The notes under the pieces are model-generated. The model did no database searches and was not told where the DNA came from. It worked only from the letters and a program-made list of their open reading frames with translations. DNA of 40,682 nt from an uncultured Chromatium sp. (GTDB lineage Bacteria; Pseudomonadota; Gammaproteobacteria; Chromatiales; Chromatiaceae). Shown here piece by piece: positions 3,433 through 24,905 of this stretch. Made by a program: the position numbers and the translations under genes. The DNA is taken from NCBI GenBank assembly GCA_903897335.1, contig CAIUAY010000213.1, positions 1 to 40,682 of the forward strand. Reading direction: 5' to 3'. Within the stretch, counting starts at the first letter, position 1. Each line of letters starts with the position of its first letter.

Positions 3433-3503
3433 GTTGAGTTGATGCAATCAACCTAACGCCACCGTCAACACGGATGTTGGGTTGCCAACAGCGGCAATCC
3501 AAC
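3433..3503. repeat. Dispersed two-hairpin repeat, copy A
   Basis: The first hairpin has arms GTTGAT (3438-3443) and ATCAAC (3447-3452) around GCA. The second half contains TTGGGTTGCCAACAGCG (3477-3493), identical to the same segment in copy C (24879-24895), followed by CAATCCAAC. The outer ends match the GTAGGGTTG/CAACCCTAC termini of copy B at 6/9 and 7/9 positions. This is the most degraded of three copies. It lies just downstream of the CheB-CheR-PAS gene, next to the heptamer array. Confidence 0.75.
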
Positions 3504-3530
3504 CAACGCGGTTTTGGCATCTTAAACCTC

Positions 3531-6500
3531 TCACGCAGAGTTCCGCGCCCATTCAATGGTCGCCAGACCATACACTTGTCCTGTCTCGTTCACCAGCGCG
3601 GTGGCGGTGATCCACACCTCTAGGATAGTTCCTTCTTTAGTGAGTCGCTGGCTGCAAAATGGCTCCAGCCGGTCAGCCGGACGCAGTGGCGGCAGTCTGG
3701 CCAAATCCGCAGCGCGCGCGTCTTCCGGGATGCGGTCGCGGGCGTTCATGTTGAGCGCCTCGGCTTCCGTCCAGCCATAGAGCCGCGCCGCACCGGGATT
3801 CCAGGCCAGGATGTGGCCATCCAGATCCTGCGTGGTGATGGCATCCTGCGCATCGCGCACGATCGCGGCGAGGTGCAGCAGATCATGGGATTGTCGCAGC
3901 GACTCGCGGGCCTGCACGATTTCGGTGAGATCGACAAAGGTGATCACCGCGCCTTCGATCACGTTATCGAGCGTGCGGTAGGGGTGAATGCGTAGCGCAT
4001 ACCAGACACCAGCCGTGGTCTGGACTTCCAATTCTTTTGAAATCAGGGTATCCAGCACTGCCTGTGTGTCCGCCACCAGTCGATCATAGCCCACCAGGTT
4101 GGACAGGATATGACCCACCGGTCGCCCGACGTCGCTCGAAATCAGGTTAATGATCTGGGTCACGGCGGGGGTGAAACGCAGGATGCGCAGTTGATAATCG
4201 ACATAGATGGTGCCGATGCCGGTGCCGGCCAGCAGGTTGTTCATGTCGTTGTTGGCTCGTGACAGGTCGGTCACCCGGTTTTGCAGCTCGGCATTGACGG
4301 TGGCCAGCTCTTCGTTAACTGATTGCAGCTCCTCTTTGGAGGTCTCCAGTTCTTCGTTGGTGGACTGCAATTCTTCGTTGACCGACTGCATTTCCTCGTT
4401 CGAGGATTTTAGTTCTTCGTTGATGGTCTCCAGTTCCTCGTTGGAGGTCTGGAGAAACTCTTCCTTAGTGCGCAGTTCCTGCTTGAGCGCGACGATGCGT
4501 TCATCGACACTCACTGCGCTGGGTGCGTCGGTCAGGTGATCGTCAGGCGGCAGATCCGCCGACCTGAGTGGCGCAACCGGTTGCCCCGGCTCCAGGATGA
4601 CCAGATACAGCGGTACCTCGCTGTTCGGGGTTGAGGTGCCCGTCACCCGCCGGATGGTCAGATTGACGCTCGTGAAATCGCCATTGGTTTTCACTCGCAG
4701 ATCATCGCGCTGCACGGCGTCTTCGCTCTCCACCGCTTGGTGCAGAGCCGTGGTCAGTTCACGTCGCAACCCCTCACGCGCCATTTTGAGGAGATTGCTG
4801 ACGCCGGTCTCGCCCGGCGTCGGTTCCAGATACTGACCGGTGCGTCCGTGCAGATAGAAGATGTCTCCCTGCGCGTTGACGAGCACGGCAGCCAGCGTAG
4901 TGGCTTGCAGAAGTGACTGTTCGGTCAGTTCACGCAGCGAGGAGTTTGCGGATAGTGGTGATATTGGCTTTTTGTCGGTGGTTTGTGTGCGCATTGCATC
5001 GCTATAAGTTGTTATGGGCGGCAAAAAACGCTCTAGCAAGGGGCGCACGGCACCGTATTGATCATCCTGACGCCGATAAATTTTCTGTTTACGGTTCAGC
5101 ACGGTAAACAGATCATGAAAATCACCCACGCTTTCGGACGTTCCCAGAAACAACACGCCGCCTGGCTTCAGCGCGTAATGGAACAGCGGAATCAGCTTTT
5201 TCTGCAAGTCCGCGCTGAGATAGATCAAGAGGTTGCGGCAACTGATGACATCGAGCTTCGAGAATGGCGGGTCTTTGATCAGGCTATGCTGGGAAAAGAT
5301 CAGCAGGTCGCGGATGGCTTTGTGGATGCGGAACATGTCGCCACCCGGCTCCGAAGAAAAAAAGTGGGCGAGACGCTCCGATGACAGATCGCTGGCAATA
5401 CTGGCCGGATAGAGTCCGGTACGCGCCGTGGCAATCGCCTCACTGTCGATGTCGGTGGCAAAGATCTGGATCTTGAAACGCGACTTCAGCGTTTCCTGAT
5501 GTTCGGCAAGCAGGATGGCGAGCGAATAGGCTTCCTCTCCGGTGGAACAGCCCGGCGACCAGACGCGGATCGCGCTATCCACCGAGCGGCCAGTGAAGAG
5601 CGCCGGGATGACCGTATCTTTCAGCGACTGAAAGGCCGCCGGGTCGCGGAAAAAGCTGGTGACGCCGATCAGGAGGTCACGAAACAGCGCATCAATTTCG
5701 CTGGGAACCTGTTGGAGATAAGCGACATAGCTATACAGCGTATCGATCTGGTGAACCGCCATGCGTCGCTCGATGCGGCGATGGACGGTGCTTGGTTTGT
5801 ACTGTGAAAAGTCGTGGCCGGTCTGAGCGCGCAACAGGATGAAAATCTTGCGTAGCGCGTTGTCAGTCTGGGGCGCCAGAATGGTTCCGGAACTGCGCGG
5901 TCGACCAAAGGCGTGAACCACGTAGGCGATCAGTTGGGCGGGCATCTGGGCGGGCGGCAGTTCATAGTCCACCAGTCCGGTGGTGATGGCGCTGCGCGGC
6001 ATTCCGTCGTACTCGGTTGAATCGGGCGTTTGAGCCATGACGAGACCGCCCTCGCCCTTGATTGCCCGCACCCCCAGCGTACCATCGCTGCCGGTGCCAG
6101 ACAGCACGATGCCGATGGCGCGGGCATGTTGATCCTGAGCGAGCGAGCGGAAAAAGAAATCAATCGGCAGACGTTGGCCACGCGGGGCGGTCGGTTCGAT
6201 CAGATGCAGTGCGCCGTTGAGAAAGGCCATGTCGCGGTTGGGCGGGATGATGTAAGTGCAGTTGGGTTGCACCACCATCTCATCTTCAACCTCGAATACC
6301 TGCATCCGGGTATAGCGCCGGATGAGGTCGGTCAGGATGCTCTTGTGATCTGGCGCCAGATGCTGCACCAGCACGAAGGCCATGTTCGGATTGGCATCGG
6401 CGGGCATCCCGGAGAAGAATGCCTCGAAGGCCGCCAGCCCGCCAGCGGAGGCACCGATGCCGACGATGGGAAAGTCGGGAGGCGTGGGCGTCTCCGGTGC

Positions 6501-6539
6501 TGGCGTGGTCAATGTTTGATCGTTGCTGCCTGCCGTCAT
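3531..6539 (-). CDS. CheB-CheR-PAS fusion protein, 1002 aa
   Basis: A hybrid chemotaxis-type signalling protein. Residues about 22-212 form a CheB methylesterase domain with the catalytic triad visible: Ser31 in GASAGG, His60 in VQHL and Asp152 in GTGSDG. Residues about 225-495 form a CheR methyltransferase, with the SAM-binding loop WSPGCSTGEEAYS near 328-339 and ATDIDSEA near 361. A long coiled coil of NEEL/TNEE heptads follows (about 678-765), then two PAS domains (about 768-880 and 885-1000). There is no CheY receiver in front of CheB, and no kinase or GGDEF output at the C-terminus. Such fusions are common in environmental proteobacteria, but the target of methylation is not established. 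No chemoreceptor or cheA/cheW gene is adjacent, so its partners are elsewhere. Cytosolic by sequence. Confidence 0.95.
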   Translation of the reverse strand: MTAGSNDQTLTTPAPETPTPPDFPIVGIGASAGGLAAFEAFFSGMPADANPNMAFVLVQHLAPDHKSILTDLIRRYTRMQVFEVEDEMVVQPNCTYIIPPNRDMAFLNGALHLIEPTAPRGQRLPIDFFFRSLAQDQHARAIGIVLSGTGSDGTLGVRAIKGEGGLVMAQTPDSTEYDGMPRSAITTGLVDYELPPAQMPAQLIAYVVHAFGRPRSSGTILAPQTDNALRKIFILLRAQTGHDFSQYKPSTVHRRIERRMAVHQIDTLYSYVAYLQQVPSEIDALFRDLLIGVTSFFRDPAAFQSLKDTVIPALFTGRSVDSAIRVWSPGCSTGEEAYSLAILLAEHQETLKSRFKIQIFATDIDSEAIATARTGLYPASIASDLSSERLAHFFSSEPGGDMFRIHKAIRDLLIFSQHSLIKDPPFSKLDVISCRNLLIYLSADLQKKLIPLFHYALKPGGVLFLGTSESVGDFHDLFTVLNRKQKIYRRQDDQYGAVRPLLERFLPPITTYSDAMRTQTTDKKPISPLSANSSLRELTEQSLLQATTLAAVLVNAQGDIFYLHGRTGQYLEPTPGETGVSNLLKMAREGLRRELTTALHQAVESEDAVQRDDLRVKTNGDFTSVNLTIRRVTGTSTPNSEVPLYLVILEPGQPVAPLRSADLPPDDHLTDAPSAVSVDERIVALKQELRTKEEFLQTSNEELETINEELKSSNEEMQSVNEELQSTNEELETSKEELQSVNEELATVNAELQNRVTDLSRANNDMNNLLAGTGIGTIYVDYQLRILRFTPAVTQIINLISSDVGRPVGHILSNLVGYDRLVADTQAVLDTLISKELEVQTTAGVWYALRIHPYRTLDNVIEGAVITFVDLTEIVQARESLRQSHDLLHLAAIVRDAQDAITTQDLDGHILAWNPGAARLYGWTEAEALNMNARDRIPEDARAADLARLPPLRPADRLEPFCSQRLTKEGTILEVWITATALVNETGQVYGLATIEWARNSA

Positions 6540-7381
6540 CGTTATTCGCTCTTGATCACTCGCTTTGATCCAGACTTATCATTTCTAGCACGATTAGTGT
6601 AACTCAAGATCTGTCCAGATGATAGACGTCGACCGGATCATCGCAGACCTGCTTTTCGTGCTGGGTACGTTCGGGCATGTGACAGCGGGTTTTCGGGACG
6701 TTACAAAGACAATGCAATTGTGAAACAGACCAACTCAACGACCTACGCCATCAGGCGGGATCGTTGATAAGATGTCCTGATATTTTATTCGTGCAAAAAG
6801 TACGCATACGCGCTAACGCGTTCTGTGCGATGACGCACAGAGACGCAGACTTGTTTCTTTGCGCGACTGTTTTTGGGGCTGCGGCTCCTGACCGCACGAA
6901 TCGACAGCACGTCTCTGAGTCACATCTAGTGATAGACTTCAAGCGAAGTTTTAGCGTTTAAACGTCCTAATCAGGTTGACCAACCGCTGCTGGCGTGCGC
7001 GAGCGGTCGGACGACACCGAACAACTGGCGATGGATGCCATGCGCCTGCTGTCGGTGCGACCCGAGCAATTCAGCCCTTTTTCAAGCGAGCCTGACCGGG
7101 CAGACCCTGGATCAGATGGCCGCCTCGCAGATCGACACCAGCGTCACCGTCACGCTGCGCGATCTGGCGGTCGGATTGCTGGGTTGTCATGGGTTGGTGT
7201 TGGGATTGCTGGGGGCGGTCGGTGAGCCGATGAAAACGGATGCTGGGACTGGCGGGGATCGGCAATCCGCCTCAACGAATCGTCAGGAGCTACAATGGAT
7301 TAGTTCGCATTGTCCGCAACCCACAGTAACCCCGCCCCAGCAATCCCCGAACGCAGCGAAGGCTGAAATTCAATCACCCCC
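6540..7381. other. 842-bp stretch without an intact gene
   Basis: No complete, convincing gene is seen between the CheB-CheR-PAS start and the Rpn-family gene. It holds an 8-bp perfect hairpin, TCTGTGCG (6822-6829) and CGCACAGA (6834-6841), and a decayed coding-like stretch at 6995-7260, listed separately. The promoter of the fusion gene should lie at its left end; I see no clear -35/-10 pair. Confidence 0.6.
6995..7260 (+). pseudogene. Possible decayed coding remnant, two frames
   Basis: In one frame, from 6995, the translation includes DDTEQLAMDAMRLLSVRPEQ. One frame over, from about 7075, it continues as SALFQASLTGQTLDQMAASQ and IDTSVTVTLRDLAVGLLG. Both pieces have normal amino-acid texture and GC-rich codon use, and joining them would need one frameshift around 7065-7080. 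I do not recognise the family. It could be the residue of a gene broken before the Rpn-family gene arrived, or chance. Confidence is low. Confidence 0.3.
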
Positions 7382-8440
7382 ATGCGCCACGACCCCGGCT
7401 ACAAACTACTCTTCTCCCATGCCCGAATGGTCGAGGATCTGCTGCGCGGATTCATTCCCGAGGACTGGGTTCAGGGTCTGGATTTCACGACCCTGGAAAA
7501 GGTCAGCGCCAGCCAGATTACGGATGACCTGCGCGAGCGTCACAACGATCTGATCTGGCGGGTGCGCTGGCACTCGCCCAACGCGCCGCCGTGCTGGCTG
7601 TATCTCTATCTGATGCTGGAATTTCAGTCCTCCGTCGATCACTGGATGGCGGTACGCATCCTCACTTATGTCGGTTTGCTGTATCAGGATCTGATCCGCC
7701 AAGGTCAGCTTGGAGCGAACGGGAAACTGCCGCCGGTGATGCCGATCCTGCTCTACAACGGACGCCCCGCCTGGACGGCTCCCTGTGATCTGGATGCCTT
7801 GGTGGAGCAGGTTCCGGGGCTGGAAGGCTACCGCCCACGGATCCGCTATTTTCTGTTGGACGAGCAACATTACGATGAAGCCCGTCTGACCGAGCTGCGC
7901 GGACTGAGCGCCGCCCTGTTTCGCCTGGAGCGCAGTCAAACGCCCGAGGCGATGGTCGAGGTGCTGACCCTGCTGGTCGGCTGGCTCGACGCGCCGGGTA
8001 ATGGTTCGCTACGGCAGGCATTCACCGAATTTCTGCGCCTAGTGTTGCTGCCAGCCCGGTTGCCCGGTGTCGAATTACCGATCATGCACGAATTGAGCGA
8101 GGTACGCGCCATGTTGAGCGAGCGAGTGCAAGAATGGACCGAACAATGGAAACAGCAGGGACTTGAGCGGGGGCTGCAAGAGGGGCTGCAAGAGGGGCTG
8201 CAACAGGGGCGACGGGAGGGGCGTCAGGAGGGACTCCATGCCGAGCGCATGCTGTTATCCCGCCAGGCGGGACGCCGTTTTGGTCCGGCCATTGCCGCCC
8301 GGCTGGATGAGCTGACCGTCGCCCTTGATGACCCTGAACCACTGGCTGCCATCGGCGAATGTCTGATCGACTGCGCCAGCGGCGAGGAGTTGATGCAACA
8401 GGTCGAGCGGATCGCGCACGATCATCGAACCCAATCGTGA
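7382..8440 (+). CDS. Rpn-family PD-(D/E)XK nuclease / transposase-like protein, 352 aa
   Basis: Belongs to the YhgA/Rpn (recombination-promoting nuclease, 'transposase_31') group. The N-terminal start MRHDPGYKLLFSH is typical. The nuclease signature is present: Asp56 in HNDLIWRV, then Glu80-x-Gln82 in LMLEFQSS, with the usual PVMPILLYNG segment near 118-127. The C-terminal part has a Gln/Gly-rich repeat LQEGLQEGLQQG (about 265-276), encoded by three 12-bp units at 8171-8206, followed by a DUF4351-like helical tail. E. coli Rpn proteins promote RecA-independent recombination and cut DNA; that activity is only inferred here. Such genes often occur in many copies per genome in purple sulfur bacteria and cyanobacteria. 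No terminal inverted repeats were found around it. The start has no strong ribosome site. Confidence 0.85.
   Translation: MRHDPGYKLLFSHARMVEDLLRGFIPEDWVQGLDFTTLEKVSASQITDDLRERHNDLIWRVRWHSPNAPPCWLYLYLMLEFQSSVDHWMAVRILTYVGLLYQDLIRQGQLGANGKLPPVMPILLYNGRPAWTAPCDLDALVEQVPGLEGYRPRIRYFLLDEQHYDEARLTELRGLSAALFRLERSQTPEAMVEVLTLLVGWLDAPGNGSLRQAFTEFLRLVLLPARLPGVELPIMHELSEVRAMLSERVQEWTEQWKQQGLERGLQEGLQEGLQQGRREGRQEGLHAERMLLSRQAGRRFGPAIAARLDELTVALDDPEPLAAIGECLIDCASGEELMQQVERIAHDHRTQS
8171..8206 (+). repeat. Three 12-bp in-frame repeats inside the Rpn-family gene
   Basis: GGGCTGCAAGAG occurs twice (8171-8182, 8183-8194), then GGGCTGCAACAG (8195-8206). Each unit adds GLQE or GLQQ, so copy-number changes would keep the frame. 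Confidence 0.9.
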
Positions 8441-8558
8441 TGACTGAGGCAATGCTGGATGTTGCCGATGCTCCGATGATGTTTGAAATGGCTGACGCTC
8501 ATTGAATCCTGTCGCCACTTGAAAGACCGACCCAAACAGGACGGGGAGACCCACCGCG

Positions 8559-9110
8559 ATGAAGACGACCGCGACGATGCCACGGATGACCGGCACCGAG
8601 GCCAAGCTGGAATTGATGATTCTGAATACCGAGACTCAGGCGCTGGAATGGACTGACATGGCGACGCTGCTGCATGGACGCGGTGCCTCGCTGGAACTGG
8701 TCACCCGGATGCAGGATCTGTGGGAAAAGACCAAGGTGGTCGGCGGCGTCCTGGTGAATATCGGGCGCGTCATCGTGCTGAAAATCTGGGAGTTCATGCG
8801 GGCTAATTCCAACATGGTTCTGGGAGCGGCACTCGGCGCGCTGGTGAATCTGATTCCCTGGATCGGCCCACTGCTGGCGCCCATCGGCATCACCCTTGGG
8901 ATACTGCAAGGACATCGGCTGGACAAGATCGCCGAGGGTCAGCAGGTCAGCTATTCGATCATCGAGGATCTGATCACCGCTGCAAAACGCTTCTTCCAGT
9001 TGCTCGCCGATATTTTTCTGGCGTTGCGCGATGACTATTTCCCCAAGACGCAGGTCGCCGAGATCGACCAAACCGGACAGCAAGCATGGGAGGCGATCGG
9101 TCGGTTGTGA
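8559..9110 (+). CDS. Hypothetical protein with one hydrophobic hairpin, 183 aa
   Basis: I do not recognise the family. Residues about 84-112 (NMVLGAALGALVNLIPWIGP and onward) are strongly hydrophobic with a central Pro-Trp-Ile-Gly-Pro, suggesting a membrane-inserted helical hairpin. The N-terminal 80 residues and C-terminal 70 are amphipathic and partly acidic. There is no signal peptide. The ATG at 8559 has a GGGGAG about 10 nt upstream. It stands alone between the Rpn-family gene and recJ, 37 bp before the chosen recJ start, so it may be co-transcribed with recJ. Codon use matches the neighbours, so it is probably a real gene; function unknown. Confidence 0.75.
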   Translation: MKTTATMPRMTGTEAKLELMILNTETQALEWTDMATLLHGRGASLELVTRMQDLWEKTKVVGGVLVNIGRVIVLKIWEFMRANSNMVLGAALGALVNLIPWIGPLLAPIGITLGILQGHRLDKIAEGQQVSYSIIEDLITAAKRFFQLLADIFLALRDDYFPKTQVAEIDQTGQQAWEAIGRL

Positions 9111-9147
9111 GTGCGATGTGTCAATATTCCAGAATGATCTCTTTTTA

Positions 9148-10872
9148 GTGACTCCGATCCAGATCCGCCGTCGCTCAACTCATGACGACATCGCTAGCGC
9201 CCAGACGCCCGCTGAACTGCTGTGTGCGCTCTATGCCGGTCGCGGTCTGAGCGATGCCGAGGAGGCCACGCCGGGACTCGGCTTGCTGGAACTGGCGCAG
9301 TCGCTGCACGGTCTCGATCAGGCGCTTGCGCTGCTGGAGGAACAGCTTCGAGCTGGTGGCCATCTGCTGGTGATCGGCGACTATGACGCCGACGGCGCAA
9401 CCGGTAGTGCGCTGGCGGTGCGTGGTTTGCAGGCACTGGGCGCGGCACGGGTGTCCTATCTGGTGCCCAGCCGGTTCGCCTTTGGCTATGGTCTGAGTCC
9501 GGCGGTGGTCGATCTGGCGGCAACCCATCAGCCCGATCTCATCATCACGGTCGATAACGGCATCGCCAGTCTCGCCGGGGTTGCGCGGGCACATGAACTG
9601 GGAATTCCAGTGCTGGTGACTGACCATCATCTGCCGGGCGACCAGCTCCCGGATGCTGCGGCCATCGTCAATCCCAATCAGCCTGGCTGCGACTTTCCCA
9701 GCAAGCATCTGGCTGGCGTGGGCGTGGTCTTCTATCTGCTGGCCGCGCTGCGAACCCGGCTGCGCGAGCGCGGCTGGTTTGATAGCGGGCGCACGGCACC
9801 TAATCTGGCAGACCTGCTGGATCTGGTCGCGCTCGGCACGGTGGCCGATGTCGTGACCCTGGATCGCAACAACCGCATCCTGGTCGAGCAGGGTCTGCGA
9901 CGGATTCGCGCCGGACGCTGCTGTCCGGGCATCCTGGCGCTGCTGAAGGTGGCCGGGCGCGATCCGGCGCAGGTGACGACAACAGACCTTGGTTTCTTCG
10001 TCGGGCCACGTCTGAATGCCGCCGGACGGCTGGAAGAGATGTCGCTGGGTGTCGCCTGTCTGCTGACCGACGACCCGGTACAGGCACAGGCGCTGGCGCA
10101 GGAACTGGATGATCTCAATCGCCGCCGGCGCGAGATTGAGGGCGAGATGAAGGGTCAGGCCGAGGCACTACTGGATACGCTCTGTTTCGACGGCGAAACG
10201 CTGCCACCGGCACTCTGTCTGTTCGGCGAGGACTGGCATCAGGGCGTGGCGGGGATTGTTGCCGCCCGCATCCGCGAACGTTATCACCGCCCAGTGATCG
10301 CGTTTGCTCTGGCTGATGACGGACTACTGCGCGGTTCGGCGCGTTCCATCGACGGGCTGCATATCCGCGATGCCATTGCGTTGGTGGATCGCCGCCATCC
10401 GGGGCTGATCGAGCGTTTCGGCGGTCACGCGATGGCGGCGGGTCTAACCCTAGGTGCCGAGTCTCTTGCGGACTTCCGTGAGGCGTTGATCGAGGCAGTG
10501 CTGGCACAGCTTGGCGATGTTCCGCCGCAGCCCGAAATTCGCTCGGATGGCTCACTCTCTGCGCGACTACTAACGCTGGAGACTGCTGACATGCTGCGTT
10601 TTGCAGGCCCCTGGGGCAAGGGGTTCCCGGAGCCGTGTTTTGATGGTGTATTCGCGGTGCGGCAGGCGCGAATCGTCGGCGCACGCCACCTGAAACTGCG
10701 GGTGGCCACGCCTGACGGCGAGCTGTTCGATGCCATTGGATTCAACCTGGGCGAGCAACTGCCCGTTGCGCAGGGGCGCGTACGGCTGGCCTATCGGCTG
10801 GATGTCAACGAATATCGCGGCGTCCGCTCGCTGCAACTGGTGTTTGATGTGCTACAGCAAGCGGATTCGTGA
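9148..10872 (+). CDS. recJ: Single-strand-specific 5'-3' exonuclease RecJ, 574 aa
   Basis: RecJ degrades single-stranded DNA 5' to 3' in RecF-pathway recombination, base excision and mismatch repair. DHH-family motifs are intact: GDYDADG (77-83), DNGIAS (136-141) and TDHH (158-161), followed by the DHHA1 region with GRLEEMSLG and FGGHAMAAGL, and the C-terminal OB-like domain. The 574-residue length is close to E. coli RecJ (577). I chose GTG at 9148 because it gives VTPIQIRRR, aligning with the start of E. coli RecJ. The frame is open further up, including GTG at 9115, but that would run into the preceding gene, and no in-frame ATG lies between. The ribosome site is weak. It converges with the Nudix gene 6 bp away. 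Confidence 0.96.
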   Translation: MTPIQIRRRSTHDDIASAQTPAELLCALYAGRGLSDAEEATPGLGLLELAQSLHGLDQALALLEEQLRAGGHLLVIGDYDADGATGSALAVRGLQALGAARVSYLVPSRFAFGYGLSPAVVDLAATHQPDLIITVDNGIASLAGVARAHELGIPVLVTDHHLPGDQLPDAAAIVNPNQPGCDFPSKHLAGVGVVFYLLAALRTRLRERGWFDSGRTAPNLADLLDLVALGTVADVVTLDRNNRILVEQGLRRIRAGRCCPGILALLKVAGRDPAQVTTTDLGFFVGPRLNAAGRLEEMSLGVACLLTDDPVQAQALAQELDDLNRRRREIEGEMKGQAEALLDTLCFDGETLPPALCLFGEDWHQGVAGIVAARIRERYHRPVIAFALADDGLLRGSARSIDGLHIRDAIALVDRRHPGLIERFGGHAMAAGLTLGAESLADFREALIEAVLAQLGDVPPQPEIRSDGSLSARLLTLETADMLRFAGPWGKGFPEPCFDGVFAVRQARIVGARHLKLRVATPDGELFDAIGFNLGEQLPVAQGRVRLAYRLDVNEYRGVRSLQLVFDVLQQADS

Positions 10873-10878
10873 CCTCGC

Positions 10879-11445
10879 TTAACAGCCGGGATCTTCGGAC
10901 AGCATCTCGACGGCGTTCCTGATCAGCGCGCCAGTACGGTAAAGACCGATCAGGGTTTTGCTGTCAGTGATGGTGCCATCGTGACACCAGTCGAGCGCCT
11001 GGCTCAGTGGCAACCAGTTGATCTCGATCACTTCTCCAGGTTCATGGGCAGGTTCGGCAATGATCAGCCCTCTGGCCAGCCAGAGATGGATGACCTCGGT
11101 GAAAATCCCCGGAGAGCTGTGCATCGGACCGAGATCAGTCCAGTCTACGGCTTGTAATCCGGCCTCTTCAGCCAGTTCGCGGCGGGCGGTATCGAAGGGC
11201 AATTCGCCTGCGTCGATGCGCCCGGCTGGAAGTTCCCAGAGCCAGCCCTGACTGGCGTGGCGGAACTGACGCAGCAGACAGACCCGATCCTGTTCATCCA
11301 GTGCAACGGCAGCGGCTCCTCCAGGATGGTGAACGATCTCAAGTTCCACCTGGTCGCCGTTCGGTAACTCCACGGTCTCCAGTGCAAGCTCGATCACGCG
11401 CCCCTGATAGATTGACTCGCGTTTTAGAATTTGGCATTCACTCAT
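10879..11445 (-). CDS. Nudix ADP-ribose pyrophosphatase, 188 aa
   Basis: Hydrolyses ADP-ribose or related nucleoside diphosphate sugars. The Nudix box GX5EX7REUXEEXGU is perfect at residues 75-97 (Gly75, Glu81, Arg89-Glu90, Glu93-Glu94, Gly96), and PGGAAAVAL plus LLRQFRH upstream is typical of the NudF/NudE-type ADPRase clade. The start at 11445 (MSECQILKRES) has a GAGGAG 6-7 nt upstream; two upstream in-frame ATGs either overlap that ribosome site or lie beyond it and are less likely. It converges with recJ and is divergent from phoB. Exact substrate cannot be told from the sequence. Confidence 0.9.
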   Translation of the reverse strand: MSECQILKRESIYQGRVIELALETVELPNGDQVELEIVHHPGGAAAVALDEQDRVCLLRQFRHASQGWLWELPAGRIDAGELPFDTARRELAEEAGLQAVDWTDLGPMHSSPGIFTEVIHLWLARGLIIAEPAHEPGEVIEINWLPLSQALDWCHDGTITDSKTLIGLYRTGALIRNAVEMLSEDPGC

Positions 11446-12363: not shown

Positions 12364-12368
12364 GCGAT

Positions 12369-16736: not shown

Positions 16737-18112
16737 CCCCGCTGCTCCTCAATGCCAAGACCCGTGCTCGCGGCAAGTTCTGCAAATCCGGGAAACGAGG
16801 TTTCGACATTGGCGCAGTCATGAATCTCGATCAAACCGCTTGAGCGCAGGCCAGCCATCGCAAAAGACATGGCGATGCGGTGATCACCGTGGGCGTCGAT
16901 GGCACCCGTGACCGTGGTCGAACCCAGTTCGCCACCAACGATGCGGATGCCATCCGGTCGAGGTTCGGCGAGGATGCCCAGACGTGCCAGGCCGTCCGCC
17001 ATCACCTGAATCCGGTCGCTTTCCTTGACACGCAGTTCCTCGGCGCCGGTGAGGATGGTTTCACCCTCGGCACAAGCGGCAGCGATGAAGATCGCCGGAA
17101 ATTCGTCGATGGCCAGCGGCACCTGATCGAGCGGGATACGGATACCCTTGAGTCTGGCTGAACAGACCCGGATGTCGGCCAGCGGTTCGCTACCGGCGGT
17201 GCGGCGGTCGAGGAGTTCAATGTCGGCACCCATCGCCCGCAGGATATTGATGATGCCGACGCGGGTCGGGTTGATGCCGACCGCTTCGAGCAGCAGATCA
17301 GAACCTGGCGCAATGCTGGCACCCACCAGAAGAAACGCCGCCGAGGAAATATCTGCCGGGATAGCCAGCCGACAGCCGCTCAATCGCCCACCGCCGGTTA
17401 AACAGACGCGAGCACCCTGACGGCGCACCGAATAACCGAAGGCAGTCAACATGCGTTCGGTGTGGTCACGGGTGCGCGCCGGCTCAGTCACGCAGGTTTC
17501 ACCGCTGGCAGAGAGACCAGCCAGCAGAACGCTCGATTTCACCTGGGCGCTGGCGACTGGTAGAACATAGTCGATGCCGGCGAGACCGGCGGCAGGCTCG
17601 ATATGCAGTGGAGCGGTGCCGTTCTCGCTAGTGGCGATCCGTGCCCTCATCATGGCCAGCGGTTCGGTTACGCGGCGCATCGGGCGGCGTGATAGCGAGG
17701 CGTCGCCGGCGAGCGTGACCGGGAAGGACTGGCCAGCTAGCAGACCCGCCAGCAGTCGCATCGAAGTCCCCGAATTACCCATGTCGAGAGCATGCCCGGG
17801 CGGGTGCAGTCCATGCATGCCCACGCCATGCACCCGCACTTCGCCTGCATTGGGACCGTCGATCACGACGCCCATCTGCCGGAAGGCCGCCAAGGTTGCC
17901 AGAGCATCTGCGCCTTCGAGAAATCCACTAATGCGGGTTTCGCCCTCAGCGATGGCGGCCAGCATGATGGAGCGATGAGAAATGGATTTATCGCCGGGTA
18001 CCCGCAGACGTCCTGTCAGGGTGCCGCCGGGCGTGATCTGATATCGAAGGTCGGTTGGCGCGGCCAATGAATCCCCCGCGCTCACGCGGCTGATGGCTGA
18101 AAAACGAGCCAT
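16733..18112 (-). CDS. aroA: 3-phosphoshikimate 1-carboxyvinyltransferase (EPSP synthase), class II-like, 459 aa
   Basis: Sixth step of the shikimate pathway: joins phosphoenolpyruvate to shikimate-3-phosphate. Motifs include RVPGDKSISHRSIMLAA (about 37-53), LDMGNSGTSMRLL, GDASLSRRPMRR, ASAQVKSSVLLAGL, RDHTERMLTAFG, INPTRVGIINILRAMGAD, ELRVKESDRI and DHRIAMSFAMAGL. GDKSISHR, ASAQVKS and RDHTE resemble the class II/Bacillus-type lineage rather than the E. coli class I enzyme (GSKTVSNR). The substrate-loop position equivalent to E. coli Gly96 is still Gly here (GNSGT), unlike the Ala of the Agrobacterium CP4 enzyme. The first 20 or so residues are not conserved, so the exact start is uncertain. 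First gene of the aroA-cmk pair. Confidence 0.95.
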   Translation of the reverse strand: MARFSAISRVSAGDSLAAPTDLRYQITPGGTLTGRLRVPGDKSISHRSIMLAAIAEGETRISGFLEGADALATLAAFRQMGVVIDGPNAGEVRVHGVGMHGLHPPGHALDMGNSGTSMRLLAGLLAGQSFPVTLAGDASLSRRPMRRVTEPLAMMRARIATSENGTAPLHIEPAAGLAGIDYVLPVASAQVKSSVLLAGLSASGETCVTEPARTRDHTERMLTAFGYSVRRQGARVCLTGGGRLSGCRLAIPADISSAAFLLVGASIAPGSDLLLEAVGINPTRVGIINILRAMGADIELLDRRTAGSEPLADIRVCSARLKGIRIPLDQVPLAIDEFPAIFIAAACAEGETILTGAEELRVKESDRIQVMADGLARLGILAEPRPDGIRIVGGELGSTTVTGAIDAHGDHRIAMSFAMAGLRSSGLIEIHDCANVETSFPGFAELAASTGLGIEEQRG

Positions 18113-18174
18113 TTTAGTCTCGTAGCAAAGCAGGGTAAACCATTATCAAGCAATGGCTCACGACTGATGAACCA

Positions 18175-18455
18175 GCCACGCCGTGCGTTCATCGGCTCTG
18201 ATCTCGCTGTCGAGGCATTCCGGCGCAAACTGGTCATCTGCGGGCTTGCGCCCGCGCTGGGTCTCGAACAAGAACCCGGCCTGTTTCCAGAATCGCCTTC
18301 TTCCATTGCCCGACTTGCACCGCCTGCATACCATGCTCCCAGCCAATCTCGTTGACGGTCTTGACCCCACGGATGGTCTCCAACCCGACCTTGGCCTTGA
18401 ACACCGCCGCGTACGTCTTGCGCTTTGCTTCAACCCTTTCGTGCCGCCTTGCAAC
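18175..18455 (-). pseudogene. Remnant of IS3-family OrfA transposase subunit
   Basis: On the minus strand one frame reads EAKRKTYAAVFKAKVGLETI, then RGVKTVNEIGWEHGMQAVQV and GQWKKAILETG, the helix-turn-helix part of IS3-type OrfA. The sequence then shifts frame to FLFETQRGRKPADDQFAPE and LDSEI, the usual next segment. It ends without the leucine zipper, and no orfB follows. The gene is thus truncated and frameshifted. No terminal inverted repeats of the parent element were recognised. Confidence 0.8.
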
Positions 18456-18528
18456 TTAAAGGGCTACTCGATTTTCGGGATTCACTTTACGGAACAGCCT
18501 TCGGTGCTGAGTCGTGAAGAGGGAATGG

Positions 18529-18573
18529 CATTTAATCCATGGTTCGACACGTGCGCCACGAACGGATTAAATG
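18529..18573. repeat. 10-bp inverted repeat upstream of ppsR
   Basis: CATTTAATCC (18529-18538) and GGATTAAATG (18564-18573) are perfectly complementary across a 25-nt loop, about 55 bp upstream of ppsR. It might be an operator or a hairpin in the ppsR leader; neither is supported by a known motif. Confidence 0.5.
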
Positions 18574-18627
18574 TGGCGTGAGTTTTTACGGAACGATTTT
18601 TCATTACCATTGACGACACTAAATCTT

Positions 18628-19482
18628 ATGAACCGCACCGTTTTTTTCGTCTCCGAGAGTACCGGCATTACCGCTGAAACACTTGGCCACAGCTTGCTCT
18701 CACAGTTCGATACCATCGATTTCGAGCAGGTCTACATGCCCTACATCGACACCGATCTGCGCGCCAGGGCACTGACCCAGCGGATGCAGGAAGCCGCCGA
18801 ACGCGACGGGATGCGACCGATTGTCTTTGCGACCATGCTCAACAACGAGATCCGCGAGATTCTCAAAAGCGGTAACTGCTTCTATATGGAGTTGTTCGAT
18901 GGCTTCATCGAGCCGCTGTCATCTGAGCTGGGCGTCCCACCGAGCCGTAAATCCGGCCAGAGCCACGCAATCACCAAGCCAAATTTCTACACTAAGCGCA
19001 TCGAGGCCATCAATTTTGCGATGGCTAATGATGACGGCATCCGGCCTGACAACTTCCATCGTGCCGACGTGGTTCTAACCGGGGTATCGCGCTCCGGCAA
19101 AACCCCGACCTGTCTCTATCTGGCGATGCACTATGGTCTGCGTTCGGCCAACTATCCGATCACTGAAGAAGATTTCGAGCGCGGCGACGTGCCACAACTG
19201 GTCTGGGACTGCCGTCATAAGCTGTTTGCGCTGACCATCGATCCACAGCGTCTGCAACTGATTCGGGAAGAACGTCGCCCCGGCAGTCCCTATGCTTCAA
19301 TGAGCCGCTGCACGGATGACATCCGCAAGGCACAGCAGATCTACAAACGTCTACAGATCCCGGTGCTCAATACGACCACCCAATCCATCGAGGAGATTGC
19401 CTCGCAGATCATCAAAATATTGAAAGACAATCTCGAGGGCTGGTCTGAGCCAATCGCACACGCCGGTGAGTCGCTGCACTGA
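18628..19482 (+). CDS. ppsR: PEP synthase regulatory protein (bifunctional kinase/pyrophosphorylase), 284 aa
   Basis: DUF299 protein that inactivates PEP synthase by ADP-dependent phosphorylation and reactivates it by Pi-dependent dephosphorylation. It starts MNRTVFFVSESTGITAETLG, the conserved family opening, and has the P-loop-like GVSRSGKT at residues 152-159, followed by TPTCLYLAMHYG. The length is usual. ATG 18628 is chosen because conservation begins there; the frame is open 57 bp further up without family similarity. The target gene ppsA is not in the window. An IS remnant lies directly upstream. pntAA begins 95 bp downstream on the same strand. Confidence 0.94.
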   Translation: MNRTVFFVSESTGITAETLGHSLLSQFDTIDFEQVYMPYIDTDLRARALTQRMQEAAERDGMRPIVFATMLNNEIREILKSGNCFYMELFDGFIEPLSSELGVPPSRKSGQSHAITKPNFYTKRIEAINFAMANDDGIRPDNFHRADVVLTGVSRSGKTPTCLYLAMHYGLRSANYPITEEDFERGDVPQLVWDCRHKLFALTIDPQRLQLIREERRPGSPYASMSRCTDDIRKAQQIYKRLQIPVLNTTTQSIEEIASQIIKILKDNLEGWSEPIAHAGESLH

Positions 19483-19577
19483 CGCTGATCAGCGGTTGCG
19501 ATCACAGGAAGCGACCATGATAATGCGCCGATTTCGCCGCCCCCTGGTGGCGACCCTGAACGCAAAGGCGAATTACC

Positions 19578-20675
19578 ATGCAGATCGGCATTCCACTTGA
19601 AACGCACCCCGGAGAAACGCGGGTTGCGTCCACGCCAGAAGTTGTCAAAAAGCTGATCGGAAAGGGCTTTGAGGTTCTGGTTGCGGCTGGCGCTGGCGAT
19701 CGTGCCGGGTATCCTGACGCCGATTACGCCCAGGCTGGCGCACGGCTCACTGACCGTGTTGGTGCCTATGATGTTGACCTGTTGCTGAAGGTGCGGCGAC
19801 CGGATGCCGCCGACGTGGACATGATGCGTCCGGGCGGGCTGTTTATCGGTCTGCTGGAAACCTGCGGCGAAGATGACATCCTGTCGGCGATGCTGGCCAA
19901 AAACATGCGCATCCTCGGCATGGAACGGATGCCGCGCACCTCGCGGGCGCAGTCGATGGACGCGCTGTCGTCGCAGAGTAATCTTGCAGGCTATCGCGCA
20001 ACCCTGGAAGCCGCAGCACGTTATGGCCGCTTTTTCCCAATGATGATGACCTCCGCAGGATCGGCGAAACCGGCGCGACTGGTCGTGCTGGGTGCGGGCG
20101 TTGCCGGTCTACAGGCCATCGCCACGGCGCGGCGGTTGGGCGCGGATGTCCATGCCTATGACGTGCGCCCGGAAACCCGCGAGCAGATTCTGTCGCTTGG
20201 GGCTAAACCGATCACGCTTGATCTGGGCGAAAGCGGAGCCGGGGAGGGTGGTTATGCCCGCGAGCTGTCGGCGGACGCCAAGGCGCGTCAACAGGCGGCG
20301 CTCGGCGATGAACTTGCCAAGGCGCATGTCATCATCACCACCGCGCTCATTCCCTGCCGACCGGCGCCGGTGCTGGTGACTGAGGAAGTCGTGCGGCGGA
20401 TGCGTTCGGGTTCGGTCATCGTCGATCTGGCGGCGGCTAGCGGCGGCAATTGTCCGCTGACCATCGCTAACGAAGTGATCAAGTGTCACGGCGTCACCAT
20501 CGTCGGCATCACCAATTTCCCCGCCTTGATTCCAGCAGACGCCAGCGCATTCTATGCCCGCAACCTGTTCAATCTGATCGAGATCATGTTCCAGCCGGAG
20601 GATTCCGGGCCGCAACTTAAAGATCTAGTCGAGGATGACATCACGGCGGCCATGCTGGTTAGTCCATCCGCGTAG
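19578..20675 (+). CDS. pntAA: NAD(P) transhydrogenase subunit alpha part 1 (dI), 365 aa
   Basis: NAD(H)-binding peripheral subunit of the proton-translocating transhydrogenase. It shows [15 protein letters not shown] at the N-terminus, the RQD-loop region [19 protein letters not shown] (123-141) that contacts the partner dIII domain, the Rossmann loop GAGVAG (172-177), and [15 protein letters not shown]. It is split from the membrane part, as in Rhodospirillum rubrum. At 365 residues it is shorter than R. rubrum alpha-1 (384), and the tail ends [11 protein letters not shown]. The stop codon TAG (20673-20675) lies inside the repeat at 20671-20734, which may have replaced the native last residues. 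It forms an operon with pntAB and pntB. Confidence 0.96.
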
Positions 20676-20734
20676 GGTTGCTGGTTTTGGCAACCCAACT
20701 TTTGGCATGTTGGGTTGATTGCATCAACCCTACG
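20671..20734. repeat. Dispersed two-hairpin repeat, copy B, overlapping the pntAA stop
   Basis: Perfect 10-bp terminal inverted repeats: CGTAGGGTTG (20671-20680) and CAACCCTACG (20725-20734). Inside are two hairpins: GGGTTGC (20675-20681) with GCAACCC (20690-20696), and GGGTTGAT (20712-20719) with ATCAACCC (20723-20730). It is inverted relative to copies A and C. It sits between pntAA and pntAB and contains the pntAA stop codon. Confidence 0.88.
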
Positions 20735-20764
20735 ATATTGAATACTTTTTCTGGAGTGACACCC

Positions 20765-21061
20765 ATGCCCGAGGCACTCGACCCCTCGATTATCGCCCTC
20801 TATATTTTCGTTCTGGCCTGTTTTATCGGTTACTGGGTGGTGTGGGGCGTCACGCCCTCGCTGCATACCCCGCTGGTGGCGCTAACCAACGCGATTTCCG
20901 GCATCGTTCTGGTCGGCGCGCTGCTGGTGGCAGGTGATCCTCACGCGGGAATTCTGATCCAGTTCATCGGCTTTCTGGCGGTGCTGCTGGCTTCGATCAA
21001 TGTTTTCGGTGGCTTTCTGGTGACTCACCGGATGCTCTCGATGTTTAAGAAGAAAAAATAA
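20765..21061 (+). CDS. pntAB: NAD(P) transhydrogenase subunit alpha part 2 (membrane), 98 aa
   Basis: Small integral membrane subunit. Three hydrophobic helices are visible: about residues 9-29 ([20 protein letters not shown]), 38-57 (with [16 protein letters not shown]) and 62-85 ([20 protein letters not shown]). VTHRM near the end is typical of the subunit. The start at 20765 has GGAG at 20752-20755. The repeat element occupies much of the gap to pntAA. pntB follows 12 bp after the stop. Confidence 0.95.
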
Positions 21062-21073
21062 GGACAGTCAGCC

Positions 21074-22474
21074 ATGGAATTCACCGTTAATCATCAGGCC
21101 CTGGCCTATCTGGTCTCAGCGATCCTCTTCATCCTTGGCTTAAAAGGATTGACGCATCCATCGACGGCGCGGCGCGGCAACTTTTACGCCATGTTCGGGA
21201 TGCTGATTGCCATCGCCGCCACCCTGCTGAGTCGCAATGTTCAATCTTACGGTTTCATCATCGCGGGCATCGCGGGCGGCGCGGTGATCGGCACCATCGT
21301 CGCTTTGCGGATTCAGATGACGGCCATGCCGCAACTGGTCGCGGCGCTGCACAGTTTTGTCGGTCTGGCGGCAGTGCTGGTGGGTGTCGGCACTTTTTTA
21401 CATAAACAGGAGGCTGGGCTGCTCAATGCGGTCTTGATGGGCGAGATCTCGGCGGGCGTGGTCATCGGCGCGATCACCTTCACCGGCTCGATCATCGCTT
21501 TCGGCAAGCTGCAAGGGTTACTGAGCGGCGCACCGGTCAAGTTTGTCGGACAACATCAGCTCAATGCGGTGATCGCGCTGGCAACGGTCGCACTGGCGGT
21601 GTATTTCGCGCTGACCGGCAGTCTGCTGTCGCTGATGGCCGTGACACTGCTGGCGCTGACACTCGGCATCACGCTGATCATCCCGATTGGCGGCGCAGAC
21701 ATGCCGGTTATCATCTCGATGCTCAACAGCTATTCGGGCTGGGCAGCCGCGGCGACCGGTTTCACCTTGCATAACGATCTGCTGATCATCGTCGGCGCAC
21801 TGGTCGGCTGCTCAGGCGCGATCCTGTCTTTCATCATGTGCAAAGCGATGAACCGCTCGATTATCAACGTCGTGTTCGGCGGATTCGGTTCTGATAGCGG
21901 CACCGGCGACAGCGCTGGCGCACAGGCCGCGCACAAGGGCGTGAAATCGGCAGCGGTCGAGGATGCGGTTTACTGGATGGAGGATGCCAACCGGGTGATC
22001 ATCGTGCCCGGCTATGGCATGGCGGTCGCACAAGCCCAGCATTCGCTAAAAGAACTGATGGAACTGCTGGAAGCGCGGGGCGTCGAGGTGAAGTTTGCGA
22101 TTCATCCAGTCGCCGGACGAATGCCGGGACACATGAACGTGCTGCTTGCCGAGGCCGATATTCCCTATGACCGGGTGCTGGAGATGGACGAAATCAATCC
22201 CGAATTCCCCAGCACTGACGTGGTGCTGGTGGTCGGCGCCAATGATGTCGTCAACCCGGCAGCCAAGGAAGACAAAACCAGTCCCATCTACGGGATGCCA
22301 ATTCTGGAAGCCGGACGTGCGCGACAGATCTATTTCCTCAAGCGATCCATGCGACCGGGCTATTCCGGCGTCGATAATCTGCTGTTCTATCAGGACAACA
22401 CCTCGCTGGTATTCGGCGATGCCAAGGACACCATCGATGGCATGAACGCTGCGCTGAAAGGTAGCGGTCATTAA
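21074..22474 (+). CDS. pntB: NAD(P) transhydrogenase subunit beta, 466 aa
   Basis: Integral membrane (dII) plus NADP(H)-binding (dIII) subunit; couples proton entry to NADPH formation. The N-terminal about 270 residues contain roughly nine hydrophobic helices, with NSYSGWAAAATGF conserved. The C-terminal dIII has VIIVPGYGMAVAQAQHS, HPVAGRMPGHMNVLLAEADI, VVGANDVVNPAA, and KRSMRPGYSGVDN near the end, all diagnostic of PntB. AAGGA precedes the ATG at good spacing. It is the last gene of pntAA-pntAB-pntB; mutM follows 20 bp later and may be co-transcribed. Confidence 0.98.
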   Translation: MEFTVNHQALAYLVSAILFILGLKGLTHPSTARRGNFYAMFGMLIAIAATLLSRNVQSYGFIIAGIAGGAVIGTIVALRIQMTAMPQLVAALHSFVGLAAVLVGVGTFLHKQEAGLLNAVLMGEISAGVVIGAITFTGSIIAFGKLQGLLSGAPVKFVGQHQLNAVIALATVALAVYFALTGSLLSLMAVTLLALTLGITLIIPIGGADMPVIISMLNSYSGWAAAATGFTLHNDLLIIVGALVGCSGAILSFIMCKAMNRSIINVVFGGFGSDSGTGDSAGAQAAHKGVKSAAVEDAVYWMEDANRVIIVPGYGMAVAQAQHSLKELMELLEARGVEVKFAIHPVAGRMPGHMNVLLAEADIPYDRVLEMDEINPEFPSTDVVLVVGANDVVNPAAKEDKTSPIYGMPILEAGRARQIYFLKRSMRPGYSGVDNLLFYQDNTSLVFGDAKDTIDGMNAALKGSGH

Positions 22475-22494
22475 GCGGCTGATGCTGTGCAACG

Positions 22495-23322
22495 ATGCCC
22501 GAACTTCCCGAGGTTGAAACGACGCGGCGTGGCATCCAGCCGTATCTGGAAGGGCAGCGCATCGCACGGCTAGTCGTGCGTGAAGCGCGTCTGCGCCAGC
22601 CGGTTCCTTCCGAAACGGCGGAACAGGTCGCCGGGCAGCGCATCCAGTCGCTGACGCGACGCAGTAAATATCTGCTGATCGGGCTGGAGCGCGGCAGTCT
22701 GCTCGTTCATCTCGGAATGTCCGGCAGTCTGCGGATCGTGGCCGCAGAGGCTCCACTCAAACGTCACGATCATCTGGATTTGATCCTCGCCGATAACACC
22801 TGTCTGCGTTTTCATGATCCGCGCCGGTTCGGGCTGTTTCTGTGGACGCCCGACTCACCCGAACTGGCACAGCGTCAACATCCGTTGCTGCATCATCTGG
22901 GGCCGGAACCGCTGACAGATGACTTCGATGGCGAGCATCTCTATCGGTTGAGCAAAACCCGACGTGTCGCCGTCAAGAGCTTCATCATGGATGCGGCTGT
23001 CGTGGTCGGTGTCGGCAACATCTACGCCAGTGAATCGCTGTTTCTGGCAGGCATCCATCCGGCGCGTCACTGTCATTGCGTGAGTCTGGCGCGTTACTGC
23101 CATCTCGCCAGCATGATCCGTCTGGTGCTCCAGAACGCTATCGAGCAAGGCGGAACCACGTTGCGCGATTTCGTCAATGAACAGGGACAACCTGGTTATT
23201 TTGCACAGTCGCTGAAAGTCTATGGACGTGCTGGCAAACCGTGCAAACGCTGTGGCGAGCCATTGCAACAGCAGCGCATCGGACAGCGGTCAAGCGTCTA
23301 CTGTCCGCGCTGTCAGCGTTGA
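22495..23322 (+). CDS. mutM: Formamidopyrimidine-DNA glycosylase Fpg/MutM, 275 aa
   Basis: Removes 8-oxoguanine and formamidopyrimidines and nicks the abasic site. The catalytic N-terminus [13 protein letters not shown] gives Pro2 and Glu3; Lys58 in RRSKYLL is the conserved basic residue. The helix-two-turn-helix has [19 protein letters not shown]. The C-terminal zinc finger has Cys-x2-Cys twice (CKRCGEPL and YCPRCQ), with the damage-recognition QRSSVY between them. The length is close to E. coli Fpg (269). The start has no strong ribosome site. It sits between pntB and the restriction-modification locus. Confidence 0.97.
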
Positions 23323-23361
23323 GACGATGACCAAGGATCAAGGCGCTTTTCAGGACAATTC

Positions 23362-24810
23362 ATGTACGAAAACGCATTCAATCGCATTGAGCGCCATCTC
23401 CACGCCGAGGAAGGCATCAGCAACGAGCTGGATTATGTCGAGCAGATTTCCTGGGTGCTGTTTCTGAAATATCTGCACGATCTGGAGCGCGAACGGCGCG
23501 ACCGCGCTGAACTCGACGGCATCGACTACTGCCCGATCATCAGCGGGCGTTTTTGCTGGGATCAGTGGGCGGCACCGCGACAGCATGGTCTGTTTGATCA
23601 CAACGCGGCGCAGATCGGCGATGACCTGATCGACTTCATCGACGACGAGCTGTTTCCCTATCTCGCGTCTTTTCGCCGTTCAGCTACCAGCGCCGACACC
23701 ATCGACTACAAGATCGGCGAAATCTTCAACGAAATTCGTAACAAATTCCGCTCTGGTTACATCCTGCGCGACGTGCTGGAGATTGTTGACGGGCTGTCGT
23801 TCAACACCCAGGCGCAACGCTACGAATTATCCGAACTCTACGAGACGCGCATCCGGCGCATGGGCAATGCCGGACGCAACGGCGGCGAATACTACACGCC
23901 GCGCCCGCTGATCCGCGCCATGATCCAGGTGGTCAAGCCACTGATCGGCGAAACCATTTACGATGGCGCGGTTGGTTCAGCGGGCTTTCTGTGCGAGGCG
24001 TATCGTGCGCTGCGCCGCGATGATCTGACCGCCGCCGAGTACGAAACGCTCCAGAGCCGCACCTTCTTCGGGCAGGAAAAGAAATCGCTCGCCTATGTCA
24101 TCGGCATCATGAACATGCTGCTGCACGGCATCGAAGCGCCGAACATCGTCCACGCCAACTCGCTCAATGAAAACGTGCTGGACATTCAGGAACGCGACCG
24201 CCACGACGTGATTCTGGCTAATCCACCGTTCGGCGGTGGCGAGCGGCGCGAGGTGCAGCAGAATTTTCCAATCAAGTCGGGCGAAACCGCGTATCTGTTT
24301 TTGCAACACTTTATCCGCAAGCTCCACGCCGGTGGTCGGGCGGCTATCGTCATCAAGAATACTTTTCTCAGTAACACTGATAACGCCAGCGTCACGTTGC
24401 GGCGCGAGCTGCTGGAAAGCTGCAACCTGCACACCATTCTCGATTGTCCGCAGGGCACTTTTCAGGGTGCGGGCGTCAAGACTGTCGTGCTGTTTTTCGA
24501 GAAGGGCGCGCCCACCCGCCGTATCTGGTATTACCAGCTCGATCCGGGTCGCAGTCTGGGCAAGACCAACCCGCTGAACGATCAGGATTTAGCTGAGTTT
24601 GTTGCGCTGCAAGCAGGTTTCATGACCGGGCCGAAGTCGTGGCTGGTAGAGATGGTGGCGGTGGATGCGGCGACTTGCGACCTGTCGGTGAAGAATCCCA
24701 ACGCACCCAAAGCCGAGGCGCTACGTTCGCCTGAGACGATCATCGACGACATTCTTGCCCGCGACGCCGAGACGGCGGAAATTCTGGAGCGGATTCGGGG
24801 GATGCTGTGA
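23362..24810 (+). CDS. hsdM: Type I restriction-modification methyltransferase subunit HsdM, 482 aa
   Basis: Adenine N6-methyltransferase subunit. The N-terminal helical HsdM_N region is residues 1-150. Then come GEYYTPRP (175-182), SAM motif I in the variant form DGAVGSAGFL (201-210), and catalytic motif IV NPPFGG (287-292). The C-terminus ends AEILERIRGML. AGGA lies about 7 nt before ATG 23362. It is separated from hsdS by a repeat and a vapBC cassette; the last about 40 bp recur in degenerate form just before hsdS. With HsdS it forms the methyltransferase, and with HsdR the restriction complex. Confidence 0.95.
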   Translation: MYENAFNRIERHLHAEEGISNELDYVEQISWVLFLKYLHDLERERRDRAELDGIDYCPIISGRFCWDQWAAPRQHGLFDHNAAQIGDDLIDFIDDELFPYLASFRRSATSADTIDYKIGEIFNEIRNKFRSGYILRDVLEIVDGLSFNTQAQRYELSELYETRIRRMGNAGRNGGEYYTPRPLIRAMIQVVKPLIGETIYDGAVGSAGFLCEAYRALRRDDLTAAEYETLQSRTFFGQEKKSLAYVIGIMNMLLHGIEAPNIVHANSLNENVLDIQERDRHDVILANPPFGGGERREVQQNFPIKSGETAYLFLQHFIRKLHAGGRAAIVIKNTFLSNTDNASVTLRRELLESCNLHTILDCPQGTFQGAGVKTVVLFFEKGAPTRRIWYYQLDPGRSLGKTNPLNDQDLAEFVALQAGFMTGPKSWLVEMVAVDAATCDLSVKNPNAPKAEALRSPETIIDDILARDAETAEILERIRGML

Positions 24811-24820
24811 AAGTTTGCAG

Positions 24821-24905
24821 GTTGGGTTGATACAATCAACCCAACGTCACCGCTGAAGCAAGATGTTTGACGCACAGGTTGGGTTGCCAACAGCGTCAAC
24901 CCTAC
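24821..24905. repeat. Dispersed two-hairpin repeat, copy C
   Basis: The first hairpin is perfect: GTTGGGTTGAT (24821-24831), loop ACA, ATCAACCCAAC (24835-24845). The second half contains TTGGGTTGCCAACAGCG (24879-24895), identical to copy A, and ends CAACCCTAC (24897-24905), identical to copy B. It begins 10 bp after the hsdM stop and ends 32 bp before vapB, so it may also affect vapBC or hsdM transcript ends. Confidence 0.88.

Follow-up and report, generated by a model that had tools for sequence, protein, structure and literature searches.

The window analyzed here, a 40,682-nucleotide contig of an uncultured Chromatium sp. (assembly GCA_903897335.1, contig CAIUAY010000213.1), holds three short elements, A, B and C, that are very probably (we estimate roughly 0.88) doublets of repetitive extragenic palindromic (REP) units, of the type known as REP doublets forming hairpins (REPINs) or bacterial interspersed mosaic elements (BIMEs). 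On this reading they are head-to-head pairs of GTAG hairpins, one with a GCC/GGC and one with a GAT/ATC stem top, spread via a REP-associated tyrosine transposase (RAYT). Those defining features of GTAG REPs that were tested are present, and RAYT loci occur in relatives, none having been found in the examined DNA of the window genome. The elements form a possibly new family within the known GTAG REP kind, of which PMC3733652 describes 24 families.

Anatomy of the three elements

An initial annotation, made from the sequence alone, had described three paired-hairpin copies. All three are present, and their limits could be refined to 3430-3507 (A), 20672-20733 (B) and 24817-24905 (C). Each consists of two hairpins, inverted and head-to-head around a short spacer of 18, 9 and 32 bp in A, B and C, respectively. 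One hairpin has a GCC/GGC stem top, imperfect in B and C, and a multi-base loop, and the other has a GAT/ATC stem top and a three-base loop. The GAT-type unit comes first in A and C and the GCC-type unit first in B, so that B is inverted relative to the other two, as had been noted.

The units were located with a covariance model, R1, built from 16 units of the window genome, so that its E-values are circular in that genome, the model's own source, and not in other genomes. Copy A comprises a GAT/ATC-type unit at 3430-3457 on the plus strand, its tag decayed to GCAG (R1 match 3428-3460, plus strand, E 4.7e-5), and a GCC/GGC-type unit at 3476-3507 on the minus strand, its tag decayed to GTTG (3473-3508, minus, E 1.1e-11). 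In copy B, the GCC/GGC-type unit lies at 20672-20699 on the plus strand (20669-20702, plus, E 1.4e-7) and its GTAG, at 20672-20675, contains the stop codon of pntA, the open reading frame ending at 20675; the GAT/ATC-type unit follows at 20709-20733 on the minus strand (20707-20733, minus, E 2.3e-6) with an intact tag, read as CTAC at 20730-20733. Copy C has a GAT/ATC-type unit at 24817-24845 on the plus strand, again with a tag decayed to GCAG (24816-24848, plus, E 4.6e-8), and a GCC/GGC-type unit with an imperfect stem top and an intact tag at 24878-24905 on the minus strand (24875-24909, minus, E 5.7e-8). Outer GTAG tags therefore stand at both ends of B, at one end of C and at neither end of A, and the hallmark of a GTAG REP, a short palindrome (20-40 bp) with an unpaired GTAG at one end, is found in both units of B and in one of C. 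A and C have 18 identical bases in common (GTTGGGTTGCCAACAGCG), one more than first reported, and the end common to B and C extends over 12 identical bases (TCAACCCTACGA) rather than nine.

Compared with shuffled sequences, folding energies gave z-scores of -5.47 for B, -3.02 for C and -1.25 for A, the last being not unusual. Copy B folds into a single nested structure (-32.1 kcal/mol), and A and C fold as separate hairpins. The property that defines a REPIN, an inverted doublet folding as a single hairpin, is thus seen in B, as well as in a pair of Chromatium okenii. An Rfam scan of the window returned no match at the gathering score.

A dispersed family in the window genome and its relatives

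In the 3.29 Mb window genome, the pattern GTTGGGTTGCCAACAG occurs at nine places with at most one mismatch, against none for the reversed pattern. With up to two mismatches, GGGTTGATNNNATCAACC gives 37 matches, again against none for the reversed pattern; palindromes score on both strands in this count, and many of the two-mismatch matches are probably unrelated. R1 yields 39 matches up to E 1 and, up to E 0.01 with strands merged, 23 units at 17 places. Six of the 17 places are pairs, and all six are head-to-head with one unit of each type, as expected of heterodimers. The scan therefore did not end with the three loci alone, and the family is also found in relatives.

Up to E 0.01, R1 matched 13 of 54 genomes, the window genome included. 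Counted on both strands, there were 58 matches in C. okenii DSM 169 (G001), 78 in G002, 47 in G025, 20 in G032 and 5 to 8 in the other genomes of the same genus; G030, G046, G051 and G053 had weak matches alone (none better than E 3e-4). An exact 22-mer search found 24 stretches in C. okenii LaCa and DSM 169, Thiospirillum jenense, Thiocystis violacea, Thiocystis minor and Marichromatium bheemlicum, and a 127-base sequence from a joint of the arrays described below was found in 9 of 96 family genomes, its own counted. In the genomes that this last search added, R1 gave 124 matches in Marichromatium (G101), 84 in G079, 4 in T. violacea (G058) and 2 in G097. In C. okenii, several pairs reach a greater length of about 130-140 bp and have inverted ends CGTAGGTTGGGTTG...CAACCCAACCTACG; one of them folds with a z-score of -11.7.

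That the arms had changed together, as initially proposed, cannot be read from three copies, and among the 16 window-genome units no base pair has changed on both sides. The proposal does find support in the wider family: in 63 hairpins with three-base loops from the examined loci, both innermost pairs form in 79%, against a mean of 35% and a maximum of 54% after shuffling of partners, a percentage that ignores the relatedness of the hairpin copies.

The place of copy B differs among relatives, as judged by eye. The element is missing from G001, G002 and G006, other sequence stands there in G003 and G005, and in G004 (L220, pntA-pntB) the place is taken by a pair of GTAG-type hairpins of a different stem family. 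As a separate observation, a REP unit (L215:9898-9961) sits where C. okenii strains differ by a rearrangement, the left side matching LaCa C38 near 674074 and the right side the region near 539665.

The cognate transposase

In relatives, the repeats are accompanied by a RAYT of their own: three of these carry RAYT genes with R1 units alongside or nearby and GTAG tags at the stop codons. The search, for which the initial annotation had suggested a RAYT or other transposase sharing the repeat ends, used tblastn with known RAYTs over the examined loci. In C. okenii DSM 169 it identified an open frame of 181 residues (L198:2235-2780, assuming a TTG start), which scores 187 bits with NF047646 and aligns with E. 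coli TnpA-REP (PDB 4er8) over residues 4-170 at E 7.9e-40; R1 units in the gene's own orientation flank it on both sides (2794-2829 and 2173-2239). The Marichromatium RAYT, 70% identical, sits within a dense REP cluster; one unit directly precedes the gene (6783-6815), and R1 matches weakly where the gene ends (7384-7454, E 0.003). The T. violacea RAYT is 67% identical; a strong unit in opposite orientation lies about 140 bp past its end, and its stop codon falls in a variant of the GTAG hairpin, as judged by eye. Repeats of this family are found on both sides of the gene in two relatives, and one unit some way off in the third. All three genes end Gly-His-Glu-TAG, the TAG being part of the GTAG tag, and all three proteins have the HxH motif and the Tyr. 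Two hairpins, of the GTAGGATGGGT and the GTAGGTTGGGTTGG type (E 0.005 and 0.06), adjoin a broken RAYT in G079 (L320); this is weakly consistent with the link between REP and RAYT. Near the Marichromatium RAYT (L365 and L366, G101:C55), we also observed unit variants of 65-74 bases with long loops, and units that follow one another at intervals of about 80 bp; the long-loop kind recurs where the C. okenii RAYT ends and within the T. jenense array.

A search with PF01797 had found no Y1 transposase in G001, G002, G006 and G025, and the idea of an orphan REP family, with copy-rich genomes lacking a RAYT, was dropped when tblastn found the G001 gene that PF01797 had missed. PF01797 is thus too insensitive as a test for the absence of a RAYT. 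Where it did find RAYT loci, in G003, G004, G005 and G032, no R1 unit was better than E 0.065, and the RAYT that it found in G101 (L311) had no R1 unit. The G003 RAYT (L165) has its own GTAG hairpin, with stem GTGCGGC, and served as a positive control for recognizing a REP-RAYT locus.

Relation to known REP systems and a possible mechanism

As outlined in PMC3733652, members of the GTAG REP super-family have an end GTAG on a short palindrome, form inverted mixed dimers with short spacers, supply stop codons with their tags, and flank RAYT genes, in all of which they resemble the family described here; the difference is the Chromatiaceae stem, GTTGGGTTGCC/GAT. The words vinosum, Thiocystis and Chromati are absent from the main text of that paper. 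REPINs, as presented in PMC3116915, likewise are inverted REP doublets with a spacer that can fold as one long hairpin and lie beside a RAYT, but their stem differs, and the halves in the window genome are mixed rather than like. The C. okenii RAYT is homologous to the TnpA-REP of the E. coli BIME system (4er8, PMC8266576), whose REP stems are unrelated in sequence to those here and need a mismatch bulge that the present family is without.

For E. coli, TnpA-REP has been described as binding single-stranded REP via the GTAG and the hairpin, cutting at a nearby CT and transferring the strand (PMC8266576). By analogy, the RAYT of this family would bind the folded single strand via GTAG and hairpin, cut nearby and join the element elsewhere. 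The inverted doublet has been proposed as the likely mobile unit (Bertels and Rainey 2011, PMC3116915), and the doublets here may likewise spread as non-autonomous miniature elements on which a RAYT acts in trans. Copies landing behind stop codons within operons would be tolerated, either doing little harm or, once transcribed, protecting or damping the mRNA through their hairpins. After landing, the GTAG may turn into the stop codon of the upstream gene; stop codons supplied by tags are on record for GTAG REPs (Di Nocera et al. 2013, PMC3733652). Also in favor of the REP reading, one pair of G001 is absent at the matching place of another strain, G002, where the flanks are 75-80% alike.

Several observations weigh against this reading, besides the circularity of the R1 E-values already mentioned. 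Single units, not pairs, occupy 11 of the 17 places in the window genome. No RAYT was found by tblastn in 98 overlapping loci of that genome (317,954 bases) and two further stretches, nor in the examined DNA of G002 (82 loci, 1.6 Mb counting overlaps) or of G025, despite their 78 and 47 R1 matches. The window genome does have five Y1 genes (seven PF01797 matches), of IS200/IS605 type from a reading of their translations, and their loci contain no R1 unit. Movement itself was not observed, and no target duplication could be shown at the C. okenii pairs or at the place in G002 that is without the G001 pair. With decayed tags on A and on half of C, and with no RAYT detected in the examined DNA, the copies of the window genome may be an older population.

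Toxin-antitoxin cassette arrays in relatives

In C. okenii and Thiospirillum, co-oriented units mostly 0.4-2 kb apart form arrays (L100 in G025, L101 in G002 and L217 in G001). At the joints, the order is hairpin, a conserved stretch, a hairpin with a T run resembling an intrinsic terminator, and then small genes. We scanned 62 array proteins against Pfam (61 of the 70 open frames and one other; the nine left out are mostly antisense or very short), and found, among others, nine DUF2442, seven DUF4160, five HicA, three BrnT, three BrnA, three HicB-like, one PemK and one RelE. The TAG of the unit ends an open frame of at least 60 codons at 6 of 11 joints in G002, 4 of 7 in G001, 2 of 9 in G025 and none of 5 in the window genome.

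Cassettes recur in changed order. Among 16 listed matches, 14 are 91.9-98.8% identical and the others 83.2 and 89.6%; between G025 and G002, the gene that precedes the array is 78-86% alike. Identity is weak evidence of cassette exchange between C. okenii strains, as 21,173 of 69,660 aligned bases are at least 95% alike anyway, and contamination of the LaCa assembly is given as 14%. Nine cassette comparisons were made by eye. In six, the hairpin goes with the gene upstream of it and the similarity breaks off within the terminator; of the other three, one differs in the hairpin too, one breaks inside the hairpin and one has other hairpin types. Homologous recombination between shared joints would most simply explain the reshuffling.

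A process driven by the RAYT may also have had a part in it: the C. okenii RAYT itself stands between two co-oriented units, and TCACGAG precedes both the upstream unit and the end unit, as if a unit of gene plus REP had been duplicated. A bolder interpretation, which we think unlikely, is that in C. okenii and T. jenense the REP/RAYT system has turned into a gene-cassette system, in which the RAYT would excise and reinsert gene-REP units and so build integron-like arrays without integrase or attC; the GTAG hairpin would lie 3' of each toxin-antitoxin pair, its TAG often ending the last gene, and the RAYT would be carried in the same way. Like integron cassette arrays, those of the relatives consist of short head-to-tail toxin-antitoxin cassettes in differing order. 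They differ in that the joint is a GTAG hairpin with a terminator and no canonical attC, and in that no integrase match was obtained, in a test that is possibly insensitive. An old integron may have contributed to the arrays, because some units stand before attC-like sequence. By eye, units in L195, L202, L203, L205 and G000:C188 (the last a contig of the window genome) stand 5' of weaker attC-like sequence. The strings 'toxin', 'integron' and 'transpos' do not occur in the main text of the paper on the C. okenii LaCa genome (PMC6374484), and the titles and openings of abstracts listed in literature searches contained no description of such REP-joined arrays.

Gene neighborhood in the window

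Copies A, B and C each lie between two genes of equal reading direction. The sites are intergenic, as initially described, except that B overlaps the pntA stop codon, TAG at 20673-20675, which sits within its GTAG. Copy A is 3' of a CheB/CheR-PAS gene and 5' of a GGDEF gene, B lies between pntA and the next transhydrogenase gene, and C between hsdM and a FitA-like antitoxin/PIN toxin pair. Between copy A and the start of the minus-strand GGDEF gene, the heptanucleotide GCCGACA is repeated perfectly in tandem (3329-3400, 10.3 copies), which could make the promoter region of that gene variable in length. At 23362-29196, a type I restriction-modification operon (hsdM, hsdS, hsdR) has the antitoxin/PIN-toxin pair between hsdM and hsdS, and copy C forms the upstream edge of this pair.

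Alternative explanations

The elements could be kept as RNA, with intercistronic hairpins that stabilize the upstream message or damp the downstream gene and a mobility that lies in the past and no longer matters. This would be compatible with a REP origin, and it agrees with the shared reading direction of the genes around all three copies, with the better-than-shuffled folding of B, C and one C. okenii pair (z -5.5, -3.0 and -11.7) and with the co-variation of the innermost stem pairs across the family. Copy A, however, folds at chance level (z -1.25), and the place of copy B is empty in three relatives of the same genus and taken by another stem family in one; because the element is absent or different there, we see no conserved regulatory role at the pnt operon. 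An RNA role also leaves the linked RAYT unexplained, and we consider it quite improbable as the main account.

Still less probable is a reading of the pairs as degenerate attC sites left by an old integron. The inner boxes of the pairs read ACCCAAC...GTTGGGT, cassette arrays of toxin-antitoxin genes do occur in relatives, a REP unit lies directly 5' of a good attC-like sequence in L216 (2036-2160), and another contig of the window genome (L114:1495-2211, G000:C214) encodes an integron integrase without its N-terminal part (TIGR02249, 366 bits). Yet the arrangement of an attC, R''/R' boxes with L''/L' inner arms, was not found in the pairs, and the boxes are only 18 bp (A) and 9 bp (B) apart, too close for the attC size range. 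With a home-made attC finder, a candidate lay behind 6 of 91 units, the control rate in 2000 random windows being 0.95%, and three of these six units were in array joints of L100 and L101; the integrase locus itself gave no candidate. Nor was there an integron-integrase match in G001, G002 and G025, where XerC/D also went undetected although 14 of 14 control genomes matched, so that this test is possibly insensitive.

The initial annotation had likened the copies to REP/BIME or miniature inverted-repeat transposable elements (MITEs), and it is the REP/BIME half of this that fits better. The inverted ends CGTAGGTTGGGTTG...CAACCCAACCTACG of the C. okenii pairs would suit MITEs of a DDE transposase with inverted ends of about 14 bp, but each end by itself forms a GTAG-tagged hairpin, many units occur singly, a target duplication could not be demonstrated, and the transposase embedded in the repeats is a RAYT and not a DDE enzyme. 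The GTAG tag, the TAG stop codons and the linked RAYT therefore favor REP elements, and MITEs of this kind seem to us highly implausible.

Implications

As REP doublets, A, B and C add to the known REP families one from the purple sulfur bacteria, an environmental group, that is linked to a RAYT and has clear REP-RAYT loci. Since the Pfam Y1 model can miss a true RAYT, REP families that have been called orphan may not be so. A REPIN that carries cargo was imagined by Bertels and Rainey (PMC3116915), and the cassette system of the relatives, if true, would be an instance of it. The REP hairpins at the joints of exchanged cassettes make the idea of useful cargo for REP doublets directly testable.

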